Source: Longimicrobiales bacterium | Lineage (GTDB): Bacteria; Gemmatimonadota; Gemmatimonadetes; Longimicrobiales; Gaopeijiaceae | Length of the DNA: 64,000 nucleotides | Direction: 5' to 3' | Assembly: GCA_028278645.1 (NCBI GenBank) | Contig: JANQDZ010000016.1 | Location: forward strand, 62,001-126,000 | Position numbers and translations under genes: made by a program | Shown: positions 1 to 13,087 of the stretch, piece after piece | How positions within the stretch are numbered: the first letter of the stretch is position 1 | Layout of the letters: each line of letters opens with the position of its first letter | The notes under the pieces: model-generated | The model's database searches: none | What the model saw: the letters and a program-made list of their open reading frames with translations, nothing else | Told to the model about the DNA's origin: nothing

Positions 1-25
1 TCCGGCAGCTCGCGAGGTGTTAGGC
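1..25 (+). repeat. attC-like site A, right half only
   Basis: The window opens inside the right arm. The end GTTAGGC (19-25) matches the integron core-site consensus GTTRRRY exactly and follows GGCAGCTCGCGAGGT. It is the best-preserved core of the series and would mark the left boundary of the acetyltransferase cassette. Confidence 0.6.
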
Positions 26-89: not shown

Positions 90-590
90 ATGGTGATACG
101 TGGATACAAATCGTCTGATCTTGAAGCGTGCAGAAACCTCTGGGCGGAGATGACTCAGCGCCACCGAGAGATCTACGACGATTCAAGCATCGGGGGCGAT
201 GATCCAGGATTGGAGTTCGACGGCCATCTATCCCAGGTTGGTCCGGCCTTAATCTGGGTAGCAGAAGCCGATCAAGAAGTTGTCGGATTCGTGTCCCTAA
301 TCCATAAAGGGGAGGAAGCTGAGATTGAGCCAATCGTCGTCAGATCCGACGTTCGCGGCGGTGGGATTGGCTATCAGCTAGTTGATCACGCCGTGGACGA
401 AGCCGGAAAGCTCGGTGTGCTTTGCCTTAGCGTAAATCCTGTCGCCAGGAACGAGGCGGCAATCTCGTTTTTCTACGACGCCGGGTTTCGCAAAATGGGA
501 CACATTCAGCTCTTTAAATGGCTTGGGGATTCCTTTCCTGGCCAATGGAAAGAGGGCCTCGAGATGTATGGCAAGAGCTTCGAATATTGA
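90..590 (+). CDS. GNAT family N-acetyltransferase
   Basis: A 166-residue single-domain acetyltransferase of the GNAT fold, predicted to move an acetyl group from acetyl-CoA to an amine. The acetyl-CoA loop is visible as VVRSDVRGGGIGYQLVDHAV (R-G-G-G-I-G, around residue 90), followed by the usual NPVARNEAAISFFYDAGF segment, where AISFFYDAGF is the family's late helix and strand. The ATG at 90 follows AAGGAGGAGG with about 10 nt spacing. The gene sits alone between attC-like sites A and B, which is a normal cassette layout; acetyltransferases are common integron cargo. The substrate cannot be told from sequence. Confidence 0.85.
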   Translation: MVIRGYKSSDLEACRNLWAEMTQRHREIYDDSSIGGDDPGLEFDGHLSQVGPALIWVAEADQEVVGFVSLIHKGEEAEIEPIVVRSDVRGGGIGYQLVDHAVDEAGKLGVLCLSVNPVARNEAAISFFYDAGFRKMGHIQLFKWLGDSFPGQWKEGLEMYGKSFEY

Positions 591-637: not shown

Positions 638-767
638 GCATAACAGCGGGTTTGCTGCGGTTCGCCTTTGGCTCGCGCCTTACGGGCCATTCACCTGCGG
701 TCACGTCGTTTGTATGAGGTAAACGGCGCGCCCTCGGCGACTGCCGGCAGCCCGCGAGGCGTTATGA
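638..767 (+). repeat. attC-like site B (130 bp)
   Basis: The left end GCATAACAGCGGG (638-650) pairs with the right end CCCGCGAGGCGTTATGA (751-767): the outer CATAAC/GTTATG and inner GCGGG/CCCGC boxes are separated by an unpaired spacer on one side, as in R and L boxes of attC. The GTT triplet (761-763) is intact. The interior resembles sites D and G. It separates the acetyltransferase from tatC. Confidence 0.65.
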
Positions 768-803
768 GAATGGTCTTAGAACACTTCACCGAGGGAGTAG
801 GCT

Positions 804-1706
804 GTGGAGAATAGAGGGAAGAAGGACCAATCCGGTGAAATGCCGTTCTTGGATCATCTGGAAGAACTTCGGTGGCGCATCATTTGGTCGCTGGTTGCGA
901 TCGTCGGCGGGTTTGGGGTTGGTATCTGGTTGGTCATTCAATTCGGCATCATCGACCTCCTCAATGCTCCACTCTACTCTGCCCTCGCCGCCGCCAAAGA
1001 GGTGAACCCTGACTTCGGCTTTGGCTTGGCTTCTGACCGACTCTTCTTCTCCAACCTGACCGAACCTTTCTTCTTCGTCCTGAAGCTGGGGCTCCTGACC
1101 GGGCTCGTCCTTTCTTCTCCTGTGATCGGGTATCAGGCCTGGGCTTTCCTCTCTCCTGCTCTCGAACCGAAAGAGCGACGGGTTATCATCCCCAGCCTTT
1201 CGTTCGGCGTGATCCTGTTCTTTCTGGGCGCTTGCTTCGCCTACTTCCTGGCCCTGCCCGGAACCGTCCGGTTCCTACTTCTGTTCGGTGCGGAGTGGTT
1301 CAGCCCCATGATCACGGGCGGGCCCTATTTGGCTCTGACGATCCGCCTTCTGTTCGCTTTTGGTTTGGTGTTCGAACTCCCCATCGTAGTGTTAATCCTC
1401 TCCGTACTGGGCCTGGTGACCCCGGAATTCCTGCGAGAGAAGAGACGTCACGCCATCGTCGGGATCACGATCCTGGCGAGTGTGCTGACCCCCACCGACG
1501 TGGTGACGATCACCCTCATGCTGATGGTGCCGCTGATAGTGCTCTACGAAATCAGCATCGCTCTGTCCGCGGTCGTAACGCGGCGGCGGAAAGAAAGCTC
1601 AGGAAAAGACGTGGAAGGAATGGACCAATCGGTGCCGGTGGTTCTCGCCTTCTTGATACCTGTTGCACGCTGGCGTGCGCGGGCCATCGCCAGCCCCGGT
1701 GGCTAG
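804..1706 (+). CDS. tatC: Sec-independent protein translocase subunit TatC
   Basis: The polytopic inner-membrane receptor of the twin-arginine translocase, which binds RR signal peptides and exports folded proteins together with TatA/TatB. The 300-residue product covers the whole family: FLDHLEELRWRI at residues 15-26 (the N-terminal E-L-R signature), then SPVIGYQAWAFLSPALEPKE, and six hydrophobic segments ending near residue 250. The last 45 or so residues are a basic, non-conserved tail. The GTG start has GAGGGAG just upstream. It begins 37 bp after the core of site B and is followed by site C, so it occupies a cassette position. No tatA or tatB gene is present in the window. The family call is secure; the claim that it is cassette cargo rests on the flanking repeats. 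Confidence 0.93.
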   Translation: MENRGKKDQSGEMPFLDHLEELRWRIIWSLVAIVGGFGVGIWLVIQFGIIDLLNAPLYSALAAAKEVNPDFGFGLASDRLFFSNLTEPFFFVLKLGLLTGLVLSSPVIGYQAWAFLSPALEPKERRVIIPSLSFGVILFFLGACFAYFLALPGTVRFLLLFGAEWFSPMITGGPYLALTIRLLFAFGLVFELPIVVLILSVLGLVTPEFLREKRRHAIVGITILASVLTPTDVVTITLMLMVPLIVLYEISIALSAVVTRRRKESSGKDVEGMDQSVPVVLAFLIPVARWRARAIASPGG

Positions 1707-1771
1707 TGGGCATGATCCTCACACGATCACCCGAGTATGGCTATCGGATAGGCCAAGGGGATACGCCATTC

Positions 1772-1949
1772 TTCTAACCGCGGGCCGTACCCCGCGCTCG
1801 TTTCACTCGCGGTCCTTCGCCGGTGACGGTTCATGTGGGAGAAGCATCATACAGGTGGCGGCTCCGGGTCCTTCACCTGCGGTCACGCCGTTTGCTTCGG
1901 CAAACGTCGCGCCTTTCGGCGAATGTCGGCAGCGCGCGAGGCGTAAGCC
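1772..1949 (+). repeat. attC-like site C, hybrid and degenerate (about 178 bp)
   Basis: The left end is TTCTAACCGCGGGCC and the right end GGCAGCGCGCGAGGCGTAAGCC, where the core GTT has become GTA. The left interior (CCTTCGCCGGTGACGGTT) matches site E, and the right interior (CACCTGCGGTCACGCCGTTTG) resembles sites B and G, so it looks like a fusion of two site families. With the flanks it fills the 298 bp between tatC and the next gene. Confidence 0.5.
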
Positions 1950-2004
1950 GAAGCCCAGATGTCACGAAAGGACTGAGAACCCGCCAAACCTCGGAGGGGG
2001 AACG

Positions 2005-3177
2005 ATGATTGGCATCCGCGCATGGAGTCTCAGCATTCTCTTGTCATGCTGGCTCCTCGGTGGCTGCGGCGCCGAAAAAGAGAATCCGGCAGCGCAAACC
2101 CCGTCTGGGACGCCAAAGGCAATTGCTCCGGAGCCGAACCTCAGCCTCGGCGTGGCAGCAGGGGATGCCATCCAAGAGTTTTACGAAGTCAGGACTCCCT
2201 TCGTCATGCCGGGGGGCCGCCTGGCCATCCCTCTGAAGGGGACCGGCGAAGTCCGGGTGTTCGGCGGAGAGGGGGAGATCCTTAAGAGCTTTGGTCGTCG
2301 TGGGGAAGGCCCGGGTGAATTCGCCGCCCTCACCGCGGCATGGGCGCGAGGGGACACCATTGAGGCCCTGGACGGGGATTTGATGAGAATCACTCGCTTC
2401 TTCCCCGATGGCCGCACCCAGGTGATACGACTCGACGCCGATCGCAGGGGAGACACGGCTCCACGGGGTGCCATTCCGGGGGGATGGGTAACCGTTGGAT
2501 TCGAGGGCTTCGCAGAGTCTGGCCGGGATCTGTGGTCTCTTCAACTATTCGAGAAAGACGGGGCCCTGACCGGCGAGCTGGCACAGCTCGAAGGCATAGC
2601 TAGGATCTCCGTACCTGGTTACTCCGGCGCCCACCCTCTTTCACCCCGAGCCGTGCTTCGGGCGGCCCAGGGGCGACTCTACCTAGCCGAGACCCTGACC
2701 CCCCGAATCCAGGTTTTGAGTCTGGCCGGTGGGGTCGAGCGCGAGATCTCGTGGGAGACTGAGGAGTGGTTAACCCCTCGCGAGGCAATGTCGCTGGTTC
2801 GTGAGGCGGCCACGTCTGGGGATACTCCGGATCACGTCGCCGGACAGCTTCTTCGAACCGACGAGATCCCATCCCGAATGTCTGTGTTTTGGGACTTCCT
2901 GGTAGACGAACTCGGGTTCATCTGGATTCGTTCCTACGATCCGGTCAAGCACTCGTTTTCCTTCGTCAGGTTTCTCGGTGGTGGGTACATTTCAGGTACT
3001 TCTGGGGAGGGTGGGGCATGGCGAATCTTCTCTCCTGAAGGCGTGGAGGTAGGGGTGGTTGAGGTCCCGGAGGGCCTCGCCCCGGCGCAGATTACGCGTG
3101 ACGCTTTGGTCGGGATACGGACCGACCCGGCCTTAGGGTTCGAGTCCGTCGAAGTGTACGCATTGACGCGGTATTGA
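2005..3177 (+). CDS. Six-bladed beta-propeller lipoprotein (paralog 1)
   Basis: Function unknown. A 390-residue predicted lipoprotein: the signal peptide ends in LLGGC with Cys21 as the lipidation site, followed by a disordered linker and a repetitive beta-propeller domain with repeats of the NHL/6-bladed type. The family motif FGRRGEGPGEF lies at about residues 96-106 and the closing strand VEVYALTRY is at the C terminus. The ATG at 2005 follows GGAGGGGG; the open frame extends further upstream, but only through attC-like site C. It is one of five related genes between 2.0 and 9.0 kb. Such proteins are frequent in Gemmatimonadota and Bacteroidota and have no settled role. Confidence 0.75.
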   Translation: MIGIRAWSLSILLSCWLLGGCGAEKENPAAQTPSGTPKAIAPEPNLSLGVAAGDAIQEFYEVRTPFVMPGGRLAIPLKGTGEVRVFGGEGEILKSFGRRGEGPGEFAALTAAWARGDTIEALDGDLMRITRFFPDGRTQVIRLDADRRGDTAPRGAIPGGWVTVGFEGFAESGRDLWSLQLFEKDGALTGELAQLEGIARISVPGYSGAHPLSPRAVLRAAQGRLYLAETLTPRIQVLSLAGGVEREISWETEEWLTPREAMSLVREAATSGDTPDHVAGQLLRTDEIPSRMSVFWDFLVDELGFIWIRSYDPVKHSFSFVRFLGGGYISGTSGEGGAWRIFSPEGVEVGVVEVPEGLAPAQITRDALVGIRTDPALGFESVEVYALTRY

Positions 3178-3217
3178 ACGCGGCTGCTCTCCCTTCAAAT
3201 GGAGTTGATTGGACTTC

Positions 3218-3344
3218 AGCAAACAGTGGGCCTGTCGCGGCTCGCCTTTGGCTCACGCCCTACTGGTCATTTTCGGCGGTCACGCCGCTTGCGGGGACAA
3301 ACAGCGCGCTCGTCACGAAGGCTGGAGCCCGCCAGGCGTCACAT
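3218..3344 (+). repeat. attC-like site D (about 127 bp, degenerate core)
   Basis: The left end AGCAAACAGTGGGCC and right end GAGCCCGCCAGGCGTCACAT align with site B along most of its length, including GGCTCGCCTTTGGCTC near the left. The core triplet is GTC instead of GTT, so recombination competence is doubtful. It separates beta-propeller paralogs 1 and 2. Confidence 0.5.
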
Positions 3345-3408
3345 AACCCCTGAAAACGGGTTGGTGCCTGATGCTGGTCTCAGGCGGAACTGGAGAGTCG
3401 AAAACAAC

Positions 3409-4671
3409 GTGATAGGACGATCAACCGGCGCGGCGTGCCTTCGTGACGCAGGGTGGATCTTCCTGGTTCTCCTGGCATCCGGAACTAGTGCATGTTCAAC
3501 CGGAGACTCGTCGGAAACCTTCGTTGTGTGGGACAGTGCTGGGATCGCCATTGTGGAGACGTTCCGACCCAGATGGGAGCGGGAAGCGCCTTGGAGGATT
3601 TCATCGGATCCCATCCTTGAGATAGGCTCCGCCGGCGGAGAAGAGGCTCAACAGCTCTACGGAGTGACTGGGGTCCGGCGGCTCTCCGATGGTAGGATTG
3701 CGGTCCTGAATCAGGGGAGTCTGAGCGTCCGTGTCTTTGGAGTTGATGCACGAATTGAGAGAGAGTTTGGAGGCGAGGGGGATGGCCCCGGTGAATTTCG
3801 CGCATTGACTTCGCTCCAGGTCTTGAGAGGAGATACCCTCTTGGTCTGGGATGTGCGTCAACGCAGACTTTCCTTCCTGTCCTCATTTGGGGGATTCCTG
3901 AGTTCGATCCGGCTAGATTGGGCTGGCGCAGAACAGCTTACCGAGGTCCGACGGATGCCGGATGGACACTTCATCGGGAAGACGTACGCGAGTCCGTTTC
4001 CACGCGGTCCGAGTTCTGGCCTCGGCATCCACCGACGTGTGGCTCCTCTCCTCCGTTTTGATGAATTCGGGTCAGTCTCAGACACCATCGGAGTCTTTCC
4101 GAGCGTTGAAGGAGCCATCGTGCACCTGGACGGACACCCACTGATGATGGATGCTCCCTTCGCGAAGAATTTCTACTTCGATACTCGGAACGAATCGATC
4201 GTGGTTGGAACAGCTGATGGCGTGTCGGTCCAGGTATGGGATGCCACCGACGGCCTGCTGTCCGTGTTCCGATACCCAGGCCTCGACCTGACCGTCACCC
4301 AAAAGGCTCGGGATGCCTTTTGGGGATCGGCGTTGAGAGGCGATCTGAGCCCCGAACAACGGCGGGAGACAACCGAGATTCTCCGAGCTCTGCCTTTCCC
4401 AGAAACTCGAGCCGCCTTCACCGAACTGAAGCTTGATCCCGTCGGGAACGTCTGGCTGAAGACGGGGGGATACTTGGCCAATTCGGAGGCGCCGGACGAG
4501 TGGACGGTATTCTCTCCGAATGGCGAGATGTTGGGGATCCTCTCCCTTCCGAAGGACTTCACGGTTCTCGCGATCAACAACGATGAGATCCTCGGGGTGT
4601 GGGAGGATCGGATGGGCGTCGAATTCGTCCGGGTCTATGAACTATCGAAGGCAGGGGCTCTAGATTCCTGA
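3409..4671 (+). CDS. Six-bladed beta-propeller lipoprotein (paralog 2)
   Basis: Function unknown. From the GTG at 3409 (GGAGAG about 12 nt upstream) the product has 420 residues, with a hydrophobic segment and a lipobox ending SGTSAC (Cys29). Next comes the family opening WDSAGIAIVE, the phrase DPILEIG near residue 70, and the motif FGGEGDGPGEF at residues 120-130; the closing strand is VEFVRVYELSK. The frame is open back to 3199, but that stretch lies in attC-like site D and lacks a signal peptide, so the upstream ATG is rejected. It is closest to paralog 5, which has the same predicted length and the same motif order. Confidence 0.75.
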   Translation: MIGRSTGAACLRDAGWIFLVLLASGTSACSTGDSSETFVVWDSAGIAIVETFRPRWEREAPWRISSDPILEIGSAGGEEAQQLYGVTGVRRLSDGRIAVLNQGSLSVRVFGVDARIEREFGGEGDGPGEFRALTSLQVLRGDTLLVWDVRQRRLSFLSSFGGFLSSIRLDWAGAEQLTEVRRMPDGHFIGKTYASPFPRGPSSGLGIHRRVAPLLRFDEFGSVSDTIGVFPSVEGAIVHLDGHPLMMDAPFAKNFYFDTRNESIVVGTADGVSVQVWDATDGLLSVFRYPGLDLTVTQKARDAFWGSALRGDLSPEQRRETTEILRALPFPETRAAFTELKLDPVGNVWLKTGGYLANSEAPDEWTVFSPNGEMLGILSLPKDFTVLAINNDEILGVWEDRMGVEFVRVYELSKAGALDS

Positions 4672-4683
4672 GAATCACGTGCC

Positions 4684-4822
4684 ATGTAACAGCCGTCATG
4701 CCGCACATTCGCTCCGCTGGGGAGGCCTTCGCCGGTGACGGTTGTGCGTTGAGATGCGTCGTACAGAGGGGCAGCTTTCGGTCCCGGCTTTCGGCCGGTC
4801 CGGCAGCCCGCAGGCGTTTACG
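4684..4822 (+). repeat. attC-like site E (139 bp)
   Basis: The left end is ATGTAACAGCCGTCATGCCG and the right end GGCAGCCCGCAGGCGTTTACG with GTT intact at 4816-4818. The right-hand interior contains CGGCTTTCGGCCGG, which is shared with site H (CGGCCTTCGGCCGG). Sites E and H form a second family distinct from B, D and G. Confidence 0.55.
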
Positions 4823-4833
4823 GAGACCGATCT

Positions 4834-6162
4834 TTGGATGTTGAAAACATGCCGAGGATTGCTGTGAGAGACGAAGAAGGAACCTCCTTCGCCGCTGCTG
4901 AGGCAATCGGCTGCTTCGATAGGCTTTGTACCTTCGCTCACCCGACGTGGAGACATCTTTCCTGCCTGATCCTGTCGATCTGCTTTTCGGCCATCGCCGG
5001 GTGCGGCGGGGGGATTCCCGGCATTCAGGAGTCCCTTCTCGATGGGCTACCAGTCTTGACGGTAACAGAAGACCTGCGGATAGGGAGCGTGGAAGATCCT
5101 GACTATGGGTTCTCACGGATCAGGGGAGTGGAGGTAGACCGAGACGGGAGACTGTTCGTTGGGGAATCCCTCGTGGGGGAGATCCGGGTTTTTGATTCGG
5201 ACGGGACCCTTCTCAGGAGGATCGGGCGGAAGGGGGAGGGCCCGGGTGAGTTCCAGCAGCTGTTTCAGTGGGGCGTGGTGGGCGACACCGTTTGGGTGAC
5301 GGACTTTTTCCTCCGAAGAATCACACTGTTCGAAAGAGCGGGGACCTTGTTGTCCACGGGAATCTGGGAGGGGGTCACCGTGCCACACGGAACCTCGGGA
5401 AGCGCTAGCTCGGTAGGCCCCTACTCCATGAGGGTCGACGGTCTTTTCCGGGGCGAGATCACGGAGGTCGCCCAAAGGATGGGCGGCGCTCCCTCCGAAG
5501 ATTCGCTTCGTGTGCCCGAAGTCCTGTTTGATGCTTCCGGTGTTGTGGTCGATACCGTGGGATGGGATGTCTTTCCCCCGCCGGCAGAATCCCGAGCGAC
5601 GCGGGTGAGTGTCGGGTCAAGGAACTACCCGGTGCCTCGGCCACCCACGGGGACCGTGCCACGGTTGGGGTTCCCAGCCGGAGAGTGGATCGTCGACCGG
5701 CACCCGGCGCAGGCCGACTCCCTCTCCAACCTCAAGATCACGCGCCTAGGGTTGATGGGCGACACCATCGTTTCCCGGGAGTACAGGTATCAGCCAAGGC
5801 GGTATCCGGATGTGATTCTCGATTCCATTGCAATGCGGTACGTTTCGGCCCGGCCCTCCGCCCGAGGTACCGATCCTGACCGTGTGCGCCAGGCCATCCG
5901 CGATGCCATGGATTTCCCGGATTTCCAGCCTCCGGTTCTGGAGGGTGTCGCAGGTTCCGACGGAACTCTCTGGCTGCGGCGGGAAGACTTGGGAGGGCGT
6001 TTGTCTCGCTGGCTCGTCATTGGGCCCGACGGCACCCCACGAGGCCATGTGGAAATACCCCGTCATTCCACGGTTTCCTGGGTGGGGGAGGGGGTGTTCG
6101 TAGTGGTTGAGAAAGATGAGTTCGATGTGCCGTGGGTGGTGCGGTTCAGGATTGGGGACTGA
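4834..6162 (+). CDS. Six-bladed beta-propeller lipoprotein (paralog 3)
   Basis: Function unknown. The 442-residue product has an unusually long N-terminal region before a hydrophobic segment ending FSAIAGC (Cys57), which I take as the lipobox. The motif IGRKGEGPGEF follows at about residues 127-137, and the end VVRFRIGD resembles the closing strand of the family. In-frame starts are ATG 4834 and ATG 4849; neither has a strong ribosome site, and I see no later start before the hydrophobic segment. The start lies 12 bp after site E, so translation signals are compressed against the recombination site. Confidence 0.7.
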   Translation: MDVENMPRIAVRDEEGTSFAAAEAIGCFDRLCTFAHPTWRHLSCLILSICFSAIAGCGGGIPGIQESLLDGLPVLTVTEDLRIGSVEDPDYGFSRIRGVEVDRDGRLFVGESLVGEIRVFDSDGTLLRRIGRKGEGPGEFQQLFQWGVVGDTVWVTDFFLRRITLFERAGTLLSTGIWEGVTVPHGTSGSASSVGPYSMRVDGLFRGEITEVAQRMGGAPSEDSLRVPEVLFDASGVVVDTVGWDVFPPPAESRATRVSVGSRNYPVPRPPTGTVPRLGFPAGEWIVDRHPAQADSLSNLKITRLGLMGDTIVSREYRYQPRRYPDVILDSIAMRYVSARPSARGTDPDRVRQAIRDAMDFPDFQPPVLEGVAGSDGTLWLRREDLGGRLSRWLVIGPDGTPRGHVEIPRHSTVSWVGEGVFVVVEKDEFDVPWVVRFRIGD

Positions 6163-6220
6163 GGTTCCCCGAAGAGCGACTCTCCCGCGAAAAGCAGAAC
6201 CTTGAATGAACGTCGATCTC

Positions 6221-6278
6221 GGTTAACAACGAGCCTGCAGCGCACTCGGCTTCGCCGCTAGCCCGCGAGGCGTTAACT
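6221..6278 (+). repeat. attC-like site F, short form (58 bp)
   Basis: The left end GGTTAACAACGAGC pairs with the right end AGCCCGCGAGGCGTTAACT; GTTAAC occurs on both sides and the core triplet GTT (6272-6274) is intact. The interior is a small hairpin, CGGCTTCGCCG. At 58 bp it matches the length of the shortest classical attC sites, which are about 57-60 bp. Confidence 0.65.
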
Positions 6279-6366
6279 GAAACCACCAAAGAGATTTATG
6301 GAAGCCCATTCAGCAGGGGTCCTCCGGCGTTGGAATTCCTGAAGTGAAGGAGAGGAGGAACAGAGG

Positions 6367-7509
6367 ATGAGCGGAGTCCCATTCGGCAAGTTTCTCTGGC
6401 TTTTCCTTTCGCAGTCTGTATTGGGGGTGGGAGGGTCTTTTCAGGAGGCCGCACTATCTGACTCTTGTACGCTCGTCGTTGAGCACCTCGCTGACTTGGG
6501 TGCTCTGGATGATCCTGCATCGGTGGTAATCCCGATGAACGTGGATCTCGCCGGTGTGCCGTGGGGTGGATGGTTGGTGACGGAGGATGGAAAAGAAATC
6601 CTGGAGTATGCTGACGACGGTGCCTTCCGACGTTTTTTCGGAAACCGCGGCGAAGGCCCGGGTGAGCTTAGCCATCCCAATGCTGTTGAAGTGGACCCTT
6701 CCGACTCCGTGTGGATTTCCAACAGGCGAGGCCGGTCAGTAGTCTTCGCCCCGGATGGAACGGCGAGCCGGACCATTGTCGATCCCGGACTCCGGCAGAT
6801 CACTAGCTTCACCCCTTCGGGGCTTCCTATGACACTATTGCTGAAGGTAGCAGCGAAAGCCCAGCCATCTCCCTCAGAGTTATGGCCGTTCGTGCAGGTG
6901 TGGAATCGTGACTTGGAACCGATTCACCTCATCGGTCCTGGGGCTTTGGTTTCCGAGGGACCTGAGATCATGGTGTTGGGTGTAGGAAACCCGCCCCAGT
7001 GCGCCGTCTCCAATGATTCCACCCTGTTCTTCCCGCTGGGTGGGGAGAACTCATTCGTGAAGTGGACCCCAACCACTGTAGATACCGTACCTTTTCCAGA
7101 TTCTCCGTGGACTAAACTCGGCCTGCAGGCGGACCGAAAGCCAGAACCGGGAGACCGTTTGGTGGCTCTGATTCCGGATGGAGCAAGTGGATTCTGGGGG
7201 CTGGGAGCGATCCGGCGATTGTCGGAGGAGGACGAGGAGGAACTTGTGCGAAACGCCCCTCAGCCGGGGATCCAGACTATGGATTCCTTCAAGCGCGCTT
7301 CAGCGGCCGTCCGAAACGCCGTCTACGATGGTTGGCTAGGTCATCTGACGGCGGGAGGGAAGGTCACCGAGGCGGTGGTGTTTGAGGAGTACCCGTGGGG
7401 TTTCTCACGGCCGGGGGAGTTTTTCACCTTTGACGAAAACGAGAACGGCCTTGTCCGCGTGAGGGTCTGGAAGTTCACGAGGTCCTGTCCCATGGTCGGA
7501 CGATCCTAG
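6367..7509 (+). CDS. Six-bladed beta-propeller secreted protein (paralog 4)
   Basis: Function unknown. A 380-residue product that begins with a hydrophobic signal sequence but, unlike its relatives, shows no lipobox cysteine at the expected place, so it may be periplasmic or secreted rather than lipid-anchored. The family motif is FGNRGEGPGEL near residue 95, with NAVEVDPSDSVWISN as a following blade. The ATG has an AGGAGAGGAGGA-type ribosome site. It is the most divergent of the five paralogs: the usual DPVLEIG phrase is missing and the C terminus is VRVWKFTRSC. It lies between sites F and G. Confidence 0.68.
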   Translation: MSGVPFGKFLWLFLSQSVLGVGGSFQEAALSDSCTLVVEHLADLGALDDPASVVIPMNVDLAGVPWGGWLVTEDGKEILEYADDGAFRRFFGNRGEGPGELSHPNAVEVDPSDSVWISNRRGRSVVFAPDGTASRTIVDPGLRQITSFTPSGLPMTLLLKVAAKAQPSPSELWPFVQVWNRDLEPIHLIGPGALVSEGPEIMVLGVGNPPQCAVSNDSTLFFPLGGENSFVKWTPTTVDTVPFPDSPWTKLGLQADRKPEPGDRLVALIPDGASGFWGLGAIRRLSEEDEEELVRNAPQPGIQTMDSFKRASAAVRNAVYDGWLGHLTAGGKVTEAVVFEEYPWGFSRPGEFFTFDENENGLVRVRVWKFTRSCPMVGRS

Positions 7510-7529
7510 GGCAGGGTGTTCGTGGTTTC

Positions 7530-7658
7530 AGTTCACAGCGGGCCTGCCTAGGCTCGCCCAAAGGCTCGCGCTCTGAGGGTCATTCGCGGCGGTCACGCCG
7601 CTTGCAGGGGCGGGCGCCGTGCCCTTGGCAAATGTCGGCAACCCACGAGGCGGTATCA
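7530..7658 (+). repeat. attC-like site G (about 129 bp, degenerate core)
   Basis: The left end is AGTTCACAGCGGGCC and the right end GGCAACCCACGAGGCGGTAT; the core triplet reads GGT instead of GTT and the left AAC has become CAC. The interior has CGGCGGTCACGCCGCTTGC, shared with sites B and D. It separates paralogs 4 and 5. Confidence 0.5.
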
Positions 7659-7705
7659 GGCGAGCGGCCCAAGGTTCGAGGAGCCAAGAAATGGAGGGAA
7701 ACCCA

Positions 7706-8968
7706 ATGCGCCGGATCACCCTAGTCTCCCTTACGTTTGTCTATTCGTCCTTCGCTTGCACGGAGTCCGTCTCGATCCCACCGGGCGTGTCTGTGCGGGA
7801 CAGCGCGGGTATCCAAATCGTTCATTCCTCACAATCAGTCTGGGAGTCCACCGGCCGGGGTTGGGTTGTTTCCCCCGATCCGGTCTTGGAAATCGGTGTC
7901 TTGGAAGGGCCGGACGAGTACCTCTTCTCCTCGCTGGTAGATGTCCAGCTCGGGCGGGGAAATCAGGTTTGGATAGCCGACAGAGGGATCAACTCCATCA
8001 GAATCTTCGAAGCAGACGGCACGCATCTTCGATCGACTGGGGGAGAAGGGGAGGGGCCCGGGGAGTTCCAGGCCCTGGAGGGATTCCTCCGAGTTCCTGA
8101 CGGTCTGATTGGGTATCAGGGCGCCCATGGACCCGCGAGCCTCTTTGACCTCTCTGGCTCGTTCCAGCGGACGATAAGCTTCGATGCCAGGCCGGAAGTG
8201 CGTGCGCCTTTTGTGGTGGGGACAGTCGAAGAAGAGACGGGTGTCTGGGCAGTGATCTCCCACTACCCTCAAGGCCAACAGGGTCGTACGGGCTTGTACG
8301 AGGATCAGATGCCGGTGTATGCCGATCTGCTGGAAGCGGATTCCGTCAGGGACTTCGGCCTCTTCACCGCCAGTCGGTTTGTGGGCGTTCCGGGACGCAG
8401 AGGCACGCCTCATTGGCAGGAGTATGGGCCATTCTTCACGATGGCAGTCAGTGCAACCCACCTTTTCTTGAGTTGGCCGGTGGAGTACTCCATCTCTCAA
8501 ATCGACACCGGTGGGCAGGTGGTGAGGATCCTCCGCCGTGATTGGGATCCATCACCGGTCGCCGAGGATGACCGACAGAAGTTCGTGGCGTCCCAACTCA
8601 CTTTCCCTGAAGGTAGGCAACCTCCACCGCCAATCCTGGACTTCCGTCGCCAACTGGTTGATGCCATGGTGTACCCGGAGCATCATCCGCCGCTTGACCG
8701 GCTGTTGGCAGACTCGGAAGGGAATCTCTGGGTTCGACAACATGAGCCCCACCGGCGCTTCGTGTCGGCTCAAAGCCCGCGAGTCCCGGCGGAAAGGACC
8801 GTCTGGGATGTGTTCGATCGGTCCGGTAGATGGTATGGCTCGATCTCACTCCCCGAACGTTTCCTGGCCACATGTATCACCAATGACCGCATTGCAGGGA
8901 TCTTCCTCGGGGAGTTCGATGTCGGATATGTGCGTGTGTATGCAATTGAGAAACCTGGTGGCGAGTGA
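7706..8968 (+). CDS. Six-bladed beta-propeller lipoprotein (paralog 5)
   Basis: Function unknown. From ATG 7706 (GGAGGG 6 nt upstream) the product has 420 residues and a short lipoprotein signal ending SSFAC (Cys18). The opening VRDSAGIQIV, the phrase DPVLEIG, the motif TGGEGEGPGEF and the closing VGYVRVYAIEK correspond point by point to paralog 2, so the two are recent paralogs by family standards. An alternative ATG at 7691 adds five residues with a weaker ribosome site. It lies between sites G and H. Confidence 0.76.
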   Translation: MRRITLVSLTFVYSSFACTESVSIPPGVSVRDSAGIQIVHSSQSVWESTGRGWVVSPDPVLEIGVLEGPDEYLFSSLVDVQLGRGNQVWIADRGINSIRIFEADGTHLRSTGGEGEGPGEFQALEGFLRVPDGLIGYQGAHGPASLFDLSGSFQRTISFDARPEVRAPFVVGTVEEETGVWAVISHYPQGQQGRTGLYEDQMPVYADLLEADSVRDFGLFTASRFVGVPGRRGTPHWQEYGPFFTMAVSATHLFLSWPVEYSISQIDTGGQVVRILRRDWDPSPVAEDDRQKFVASQLTFPEGRQPPPPILDFRRQLVDAMVYPEHHPPLDRLLADSEGNLWVRQHEPHRRFVSAQSPRVPAERTVWDVFDRSGRWYGSISLPERFLATCITNDRIAGIFLGEFDVGYVRVYAIEKPGGE

Positions 8969-9053
8969 AGGCGGCGACGCTCTCGTCAGGGGTGGGTAAG
9001 GGTGGCACAAGTTTTTCACCCGGGTGTGCTTGATCGGTGCGACCACACCCGCC

Positions 9054-9193
9054 CCATAACAGCGGTCATGCCGCACCCTCGTTGTCGATCGTAGTCCTTT
9101 GCAATGCACGGTTTCGGGCGGAGAAACATCATATTGATGGACGGCTCTGGGCCCCGGCCTTCGGCCGGTCCGGCAGCCCGCGATGCGCTATCC
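9054..9193 (+). repeat. attC-like site H (140 bp, degenerate core)
   Basis: The left end is CCATAACAGCGGTCATGCCG and the right end GGCAGCCCGCGATGCGCTAT; the core triplet is GCT instead of GTT. It aligns with site E over both ends. It sits inside the 383-bp stretch without a gene (8969-9351); the remaining 85 bp before and 158 bp after it show no further gene or clear promoter. Confidence 0.5.
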
Positions 9194-11998: not shown

Positions 11999-13087
11999 AT
12001 GTACCGAATGCCGCGCGTTGGATTGAACCTACTGGTGATTCTAGGCCTGACCGCTTGCGACAGTGACGCGACGGGCCCGGAGTTGATTCCTTTGTCTTTC
12101 ATCTCCGTGGACGTCGGCTACGACCACACCTGCGGTGTGGCTACCAATGGTGAAGCCTACTGCTGGGGCCTGGGCCAAGCCGTTCCGACGCTGGTTTCCA
12201 CGGACCTGGTCTTTTCGAGCCTGAGCGCTGGTACGGACCTCACCTGTGGCGTGACCCCAGTGGGAGAAACCTACTGTTGGTCCGGGTTCAGTCCGGATCC
12301 CGAGTTGGTTCCGGGAGGCTTTCGTTTCGACCAGGTGAGCGTGGGCCTACTCCACCGATGTGGGGTGACCACAACCGGCGAGGCCTACTGCTGGGGGCTG
12401 GGGTACGCCGGCCAAATCGGGGACGGGTCGACGGAGGAGAGAACTGAGCCGACCCTGGTTTCGGGCGATATCACCTTCTCGACCGTCAGCGCTGGGCATG
12501 AACATACCTGTGGGGTAGCTACCGACGGGAAGGCGTACTGTTGGGGCCAGGGTTTCTTTGGCCAGCTCGGGAACGGGTCAAAAGAAGACAAGCTGGTTCC
12601 GACCTTGGTGTCAGGCGGCTTCATTTTCACGGAGGTGAGCGTCGACCAACGCCATAAGACCGCAAACCACACCTGCGGGGTAACGACGGACAGCGAAGCA
12701 TACTGCTGGGGAGGGAGCGATCACGGCGAGCTCGGGATTGGGGTAGGACAAGCCTACGAGGCGACACCTGCCTTGGTGCTAGGTGGCCACGATTTCGCCT
12801 CCGTGAGTACCGCCGCTGACCACACGTGCGGAGTAACCACGGGCGGGGAAGCCCTTTGTTGGGGAATGGGCGGGCTCCTGGGGAACGGGTTGGAGGAACA
12901 GAGTTTGGTTCCTACGCCGGTTTCGGGTGGCCTAAACTTCGAATCCCTAAGTACTGGCTGGCAGCACACCTGTGGAGTGACGACAGGAGGAGAGGCTTAC
13001 TGCTGGGGAGCCGGCGGGGGACGACTCGGGAACGGGACGGGGGACTCTAAGCTTGTGCCCACGAAAGTGTCTGATGGTATGGGATGA
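11999..13087 (+). CDS. RCC1-repeat lipoprotein
   Basis: Function unknown. A 362-residue lipoprotein with a short signal ending LGLTAC (Cys18). The rest is seven RCC1-type repeats of about 45-50 residues, each with a core like HTCGVTTGGEAYCWG. Seven repeats would close a seven-bladed propeller. Each repeat carries a Cys pair (CGV and YCWG), which suggests disulphides outside the cytoplasm. Bacterial RCC1 proteins occur in Gemmatimonadota and Myxococcota; their ligands are unknown. A GAAAGG ribosome site lies within degenerate site I. The stop overlaps the next gene's start (ATGA), implying joint translation. Confidence 0.82.
   Translation: MYRMPRVGLNLLVILGLTACDSDATGPELIPLSFISVDVGYDHTCGVATNGEAYCWGLGQAVPTLVSTDLVFSSLSAGTDLTCGVTPVGETYCWSGFSPDPELVPGGFRFDQVSVGLLHRCGVTTTGEAYCWGLGYAGQIGDGSTEERTEPTLVSGDITFSTVSAGHEHTCGVATDGKAYCWGQGFFGQLGNGSKEDKLVPTLVSGGFIFTEVSVDQRHKTANHTCGVTTDSEAYCWGGSDHGELGIGVGQAYEATPALVLGGHDFASVSTAADHTCGVTTGGEALCWGMGGLLGNGLEEQSLVPTPVSGGLNFESLSTGWQHTCGVTTGGEAYCWGAGGGRLGNGTGDSKLVPTKVSDGMG

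Follow-up and report, generated by a model that had tools for sequence, protein, structure and literature searches.

A Longimicrobiales bacterium with a second tatC gene, probably acquired as a cassette of a chromosomal integron-type array

A gene for TatC, a core translocase subunit, that stands between two attC-like sites raises the question of whether it is a true integron cassette, whether it is the genome's own tatC or an acquired one, and which recombinase could have placed it there. The gene lies near the start of the stretch of DNA analysed here (the window, 64,000 nucleotides), which corresponds to bases 62001-126000 of contig C50 of the studied genome (G000; 4.9 Mb in 103 contigs, 95.6% complete). 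We consider it quite probable that a chromosomal integron-type array took up this gene, a tatC xenolog that looks functional, as a cassette, and that the array was run by a family of tyrosine recombinases without the IntI-specific insert, here called patch-less.

The tatC gene and the boundaries of its cassette

The initial annotation had described a full-length TatC with its ELR signature and its own ribosome site. Both descriptions held: the complete open reading frame matches PF00902 with 204 bits against a curated cut-off of 25.1, covering positions 1-206 of the 208 in the profile (Pfam), the ELR signature is located in MPFLDHLEELRWR, and a ribosome-binding-like motif precedes the start codon (Table 1). 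The claimed distance of 37 bp between a core and the start of tatC is correct when the end of that 7-bp core (767) is taken as the starting point. To locate attC sites we used R1, an attC profile made from 15 sites of the array, which acts mainly as a sequence profile because the consensus fold of a mixed attC alignment had only 7 pairs. The gene is indeed flanked by attC-like sites, B and C, and together they give what defines a cassette, one gene with attC R' cores in the same orientation, the core of site C being decayed. Site B spans AAC 642-644 to its GTT, and site A, which closes the cassette preceding the GNAT gene, occupies C50:61851-62023 as a whole. The R' core of site C reads GTA (1943-1945) where GTT is expected, so the site is partly decayed; it is possibly a compound of two sites.

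Table 1. Features of the tatC cassette and the surrounding array; positions are those of the window unless prefixed with C50
Feature	Position	Strand	Remark
Tyrosine recombinase between nuoN and attI	C50:38364-39284	same strand as array	
attC site A, 3' end (R' core GTTAGGC)	1..23	+	R1 match cut by window start
GNAT acetyltransferase cassette gene	90..590	+	PF00583, 56 bits; own head ranks 1 of 20 for tail
attC site B, start of tatC cassette	640..765	+	GTT of R' at 761-763; R1 87.9 bits, not independent of the model (one of the 15 sites that built R1)
Ribosome-binding-like GAGGGAG	791..797	+	read in the sequence; six bases ahead of the tatC GTG
Second, xenologous tatC	804..1706	+	GTG start, 300 aa; PF00902, tree, AU test
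attC site C, belonging to the tatC cassette	1774..1947	+	R1 52.9 bits, E 4.8e-9; outside the model
Next cassette gene	2005..3177	+	no Pfam family at E<=0.001
attC site	3220..3342	+	R1 68.1 bits
attC site	4686..4820	+	R1 102.7 bits
Cassette gene, 6-bladed beta-propeller (DUF5128)	4834..6162	+	Pfam
Degenerate attC site	6223..6276	+	R1 21 bits, E 0.026
attC site	7532..7656	+	R1 73.3 bits
Final attC of the array inside the window	9056..9191	+	R1 112 bits

A further check on cassette boundaries is a head-tail test, in which the head of a cassette is compared with the bases ahead of the same cassette's R''. The head of the tatC cassette ranks 4 of 20 for its own tail and a hand alignment pairs 11/13 bases, a modest signal. 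The view of tatC as an unusual integron cargo stood as far as its cassette status is concerned, but it is not unprecedented, as the available text of two studies (PMC7564866, PMC9277118) places TatC among class 1 cassettes amplified from Chinese farm soils. Those cassettes resemble the present one in having TatC as cargo, as far as that text goes, and differ in that they were obtained by PCR without genome context, whereas here the array is assembled in a chromosome and the native copy is known.

Second copy, separate ancestry and predicted role of the cassette TatC

The initial annotation had supposed that a second tatC might exist and would have fallen back on an ordinary resident gene had this been the only one and syntenic in relatives without flanking repeats; the genome holds two. 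The one further TatC match is a native-looking tatC on contig C62, after an nrdR-like gene (nrdR read from sequence). Exactly one TatC match was found in 57 of the 58 relatives searched, and the congeners G001 (90% complete) and G002 (67% complete) have a single match each. The one exception among the 58 has two adjacent TatC matches (G038; L280, G038:C111:70000-80000). A phylum-wide TatC search covered 395 genomes, 369 of them with a match, and some of these have two or three per genome (e.g., G008, G288, G400). The same search gave, in several genomes of families f4 and f3 (e.g., G156, G185, G054), TatC matches inside open frames of ~1,180-1,390 aa, which may be fusions of TatC with a large protein or else long frames that arose by chance.

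Ancestry was addressed with a tree of 47 TatC, the 46 other rows being picked from loci of the relatives search and the phylum search, with repeats of one genome used once and with L023 (start motif not found), G048, G050 and G388 left out. In this tree the native copies of the genus cluster together, the native copy of the studied genome standing with both congeners, and the cassette TatC clusters with G008 and G390 of another genus (support 96/90). When the cassette copy is forced into the clade of its own genus, the log-likelihood drops by 38, and this union is rejected with a p-AU of 0.0004 for a group that was named after the tree had been seen. Identity agrees with the tree, at 57-60% to the best matches in several other genera vs 52% to the native copy of the same genome. 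The end branch of the cassette TatC measures 0.91 vs a median of 0.22 and is by far the longest in the tree, which may reflect relaxed constraint or misplacement. A long branch is also what an old in-genome duplicate that evolved fast would give, its kinship with the other genus then being a long-branch effect; given the outcome of the AU test and the identities, we find such a duplicate very improbable.

Constraint on the protein is visible at the residue level. The cassette copy kept 37 of the 39 columns that are invariant in the 45 other TatC, and the native copy kept 39/39 in the same kind of test. Compared with G008, the cassette gene has a dN of 0.34 and a dS, near saturation, of 1.53, with a dN/dS of ~0.2. 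From these comparisons we conclude that the cassette TatC appears to be a xenolog under constraint and not a recent duplicate, with its source probably within the family. A plasmid search with the cassette TatC returned 122 records, all at <60% identity (32-35% among the 15 matches listed of the 122), and a search of named genomes with the poorly conserved stretches of the protein as query gave no match.

No tatA/B gene was found in the array, and the two TatA/B matches of the genome are both on other contigs. The likeliest role of the cassette TatC is that of an extra or alternative receptor for the resident Tat system, in which it would insert in the inner membrane and work with the resident TatA/TatB. 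A change in the range of exported substrates, as the initial annotation had suggested, is possible; no Tat-type signal peptide came up when the open reading frames of the C50, C38 and C71 array stretches and of four G001 contigs were scanned with a simple motif. It could also be that the protein is no longer part of a translocase and drifts as a silent passenger in a frozen array. The truncated recombinase described below, the decayed site C, the distance of ~23 kb from attI and the long branch would agree with that, while the complete frame, the ribosome-binding-like site, the retained invariant residues and the dN/dS relative to G008 speak against it, and we regard a silent passenger as rather unlikely. 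Cassette anatomy, the second copy with its separate ancestry and conserved residues, the missing patch and the cross-phylum association of arrays with such recombinases are computed results; we infer from them that the cassette tatC is expressed, that it functions in Tat export and that the recombinase at the array head carried out the recombination.

The array and the recombinase at its head

The array is ~30 kb long, with + strand R' cores from C50:41075 to C50:71174 (window 9174). R1 gave 26 matches across 11 stretches of this genome and its relatives, all of them in C50 and all on the + strand. In whole-genome searches, with 99 candidates scored per genome, it gave 33 matches in the studied genome (C50, C38, C71, C97, C9), 14 in the congener G001 and none in 31 other relatives. 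Summed over the array, head-tail complementarity reached 175.5 vs 124.1 ± 5.9 (maximum 157) in 20,000 shuffled pairings, and since all of these are exceeded the array is no chance pattern. The match is strongest near the array start and erodes with distance from it, the pattern that entry of new cassettes at attI would produce. Because the tail of the first cassette matches 14 bases at C50:39650, G^TTAACCGGCACCG, we took this as an attI-like point; it lies ~370 bp 3' of a tyrosine recombinase gene that comes after nuoN. The array would start at this point and extend into the window. Its cassettes presumably enter as circles; their attC, folded on the bottom strand, would recombine with attI.

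Array cargo comprises many 6-bladed beta-propeller genes, plus a GNAT acetyltransferase, a Fic protein and TatC. Lipoprotein-like genes of the beta-propeller kind (DUF5128) dominate it (window 1663-9190 and C50:39692-62000), which is an unusual cassette theme. The Fic/DOC gene (C50:41122-41511), upstream of the window, is on the minus strand, opposite to the array. Just past the array is a gene for an RCC1-repeat protein (window 11999-13087) with seven repeats of ~114-165 bases.

The recombinase at the array head scores 208 bits on TIGR02249, where the cut-off is 265, and is far under the cut-off of NF011946; no IntI above the TIGR02249 cut-off was found in the genome. It lacks the IntI-specific insert of ~30 residues between GKG and HxxRHS, which is present in 12/12 aligned IntI of relatives. 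In a recombinase tree IntI forms one clade (100/100), and the protein falls outside it, with G022:C1 and G001:C122 (100/99). What a canonical integron has beside attI, an integrase with the IntI-specific domain, is thus absent here, and the array recombinase belongs to a family without that insert. The best or second-best NCBIfam match of patch-less recombinases is NF040815 (recomb_XerA_Arch, 'site-specific tyrosine recombinase/integron integrase'): the proteins of G006, G022 and the studied genome reach 202-212 against its cut-off of 220, which 3/6 named patch-less recombinases pass. The sister protein G001:C122 has a toxin-antitoxin-like pair on its 3' side (read from sequence), with no attC and no head-tail pairs, which counts against a strict rule that every such recombinase has an array.

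The congener G001 (nuoN 93% identical) also has an ortholog 3' of nuoN, and there the N-terminal part that is missing from the studied genome is present; its C-terminal part lies beyond the end of the G001 contig, which falls within the gene. The two are 82% identical over 165 codons, with a dN of 0.11, a dS of 1.06 and a dN/dS of ~0.1. The recombinase is thus kept at nuoN under constraint in the congener, and the platform was therefore maintained in the genus. Truncation in the studied genome looks like a recent loss. With the N-terminal part gone, the array is probably frozen now.

An IS91-type element as the source of the patch-less recombinase was considered and set aside: the recombinases at G022:C2 and G005:C85 branch apart from the C50 clade, and no IS91-type transposase lies between recombinase and attI in the studied genome. 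An IS91-type transposase-like frame, read from sequence, does lie 3' of the patch-less recombinase at these two loci (L060 and L063, respectively), which share the end motif GGAAACAATCCTTRTTYGTTA; it looks like another attI-type point.

Patch-less recombinases and cassette arrays across phyla

A2, a profile of patch-less recombinases, was run on 116 genomes of the family, where its matches score 224-499 bits vs <=189 bits for Xer proteins. Among the 39 recombinase genes listed from the family, a contig end lies within 1 kb on the 3' side in 19 and on the 5' side in 2, an excess that is as expected if repeats follow. Such breaks <1 kb 3' of the gene are frequent in assemblies (G001:C513, G020:C49, G395:C77, G011:C7 and others), and draft genomes therefore probably lack many of the arrays. 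As a measure of chained cassettes we counted links, a link being a head-tail pair (>=12/14 bases) followed by the head of another pair within 45-230 bases. Links occur 3' of the recombinase at 4 of 30 Gemmatimonadota loci with 3' sequence (6 in the studied genome, 4 at G022:C1, 3 at G006:C1 and 1 in G325). The other 26 have none; several of them have little sequence, and G340, G353:C121, G204 and G224 have ~20 kb downstream. No link was seen in the 385 kb of controls, made up of 123 kb from 5' sides and 262 kb from elsewhere.

On contigs of named genomes A2 matched 578 related stretches, and we analysed the best 80. For these best 80 of 578, the downstream sides hold 111 pairs and 41 links in 428,719 bases, and the upstream sides 42 pairs and 0 links in 602,218 bases. 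Of the 49 loci with >=2 kb of downstream sequence 15 had links, and of 71 upstream sides none had; contig ends <1 kb away numbered 20 downstream vs 5 upstream. The 15 linked loci include Brucepastera (complete chromosome), Halanaerobacter, three Paenibacillus, a Treponema and two Nitrospirae. Seven further linked loci we take to be Bacteroidota. The GKG and HxxRHS motifs lie 63-69 residues apart in those 73 recombinases (of 80) whose spacing is measurable, vs 107 in two IntI; the seven others include L271, one of the 15 linked loci. No IntI above cut-off was found in 11 of 13 genomes tested, and both Nitrospirae have one. The Brucepastera parasyntrophica locus (L218, 10808-20807) has near-identical attC-like sites of 155-165 nt behind its patch-less recombinase. 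Its cargo (GmrSD restriction genes, DUF1643, DUF5131, DUF4365) is, as regards GmrSD, in keeping with cassettes that carry defence genes.

The sites of these arrays also have a common anatomy. In 57 linked pairs from named genomes most positions match, positions 1-5 by the search rule. Position 11 differs in 52/57, with A in the head and G in the reversed tail in 50 and the reverse in none. This makes a G-T wobble on the bottom strand vs an A-C mismatch on the top strand, which could help strand choice. Head-tail pairs listed for the studied genome are identical at position 11, without the A/G asymmetry. Folding was assessed on 48 sites drawn from 18 patch-less arrays, with 48 cassette-body stretches of the same arrays as control. 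With the pairing arms removed, the mean z vs shuffles was -3.45 for sites vs -0.40 for cassette body, and z was < -2 in 36/48 sites vs 7/48 body stretches; with arms included it was < -2 in 48/48 sites, but the arms had been selected for complementarity. In 36/48 sites the bottom strand has the more stable fold, so hairpin-folding attC with a favoured bottom strand, as in canonical integrons, are found in the patch-less group. Four sites of the studied genome folded singly gave two z values <= -2.4 and two near 0.

These results bear on whether the array could be an ordinary decayed integron, a CALIN, built by a canonical IntI that was then lost, with the patch-less recombinase an unrelated passenger. 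IntI above the TIGR02249 cut-off is present in 14/59 genomes of the relatives search, G022, G020 and G031 carry both kinds of recombinase, and the array lacks the position-11 signature of other patch-less arrays, all of which would suit that account. It fits poorly with the conservation of the recombinase at the same place in the congener, with the lack of IntI above cut-off in most genomes tested, in the studied genome and in G006, whose genome is a single contig and has an array next to the patch-less recombinase, and with the wholly downstream position of links in the best 80 of 578 named loci. We judge a decayed canonical integron unlikely, and propose instead that integron-type arrays are run by patch-less recombinases, whose activity we infer.

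The array is like a sedentary chromosomal integron in its mostly single-gene cassettes, attC R and L boxes, bottom-strand folding, attI-like point and complementarity past the 7-nt core, and unlike one in its recombinase, which is without the IntI-specific insert and branches outside the IntI clade. Two of these features are no novelty or hallmark. The available part of PMC2727003 already describes pairing that goes beyond the 7-nt core, with 9-11 nt, and extended head-tail complementarity is also present in canonical IntI integrons of the family. The position of the recombinase on the same strand as the array appears likewise at the two canonical IntI loci inspected in the family, L074 and L079, and the accessible sections of PMC9668308 report most Spirochaetota IntI as reversed, as an excerpt of PMC3607928 reports an atypical orientation in Treponema. 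In the same sections of PMC9668308, IntI have an additional domain needed for recombination by which integrases are recognised; judged by that profile rule alone, the array would probably be filed as a CALIN, which it is unlike in having a recombinase at attI, though no IntI by the rule. Gemmatimonadota are among the integron-bearing phyla in the part seen of a review (PMC8618304). Our literature search found no report of cassette arrays with patch-less recombinases; most subscription journals and all preprints were outside it, which makes this weak evidence of novelty.

We lean slightly towards a wider reading, in which a widespread and overlooked class of integrons in Gemmatimonadota, Bacillota, Spirochaetota, Bacteroidota and Nitrospirota uses an Xer-like integrase without the IntI domain and folded attC whose extended core reads GTTANNNGNNA in the cassette head and, opposite it, GTTANNNGNNG in the tail. 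Many CALINs would thus have an integrase, and one such platform would have taken up TatC. If this is true, the rule that integrons have an IntI with the extra domain is too narrow, and arrays filed as integrase-less, in phyla thought to be poor in integrons, have an adjacent integrase. It would also bear on the origin of IntI from Xer-like recombinases and on patch-independent recognition of folded single-stranded sites. A core, normally single-copy translocase subunit in a cassette would mean that even general export machinery is tradable by integrons, to be swapped or doubled in one step. Brucepastera, Halanaerobacter and Paenibacillus offer culturable organisms for both points.
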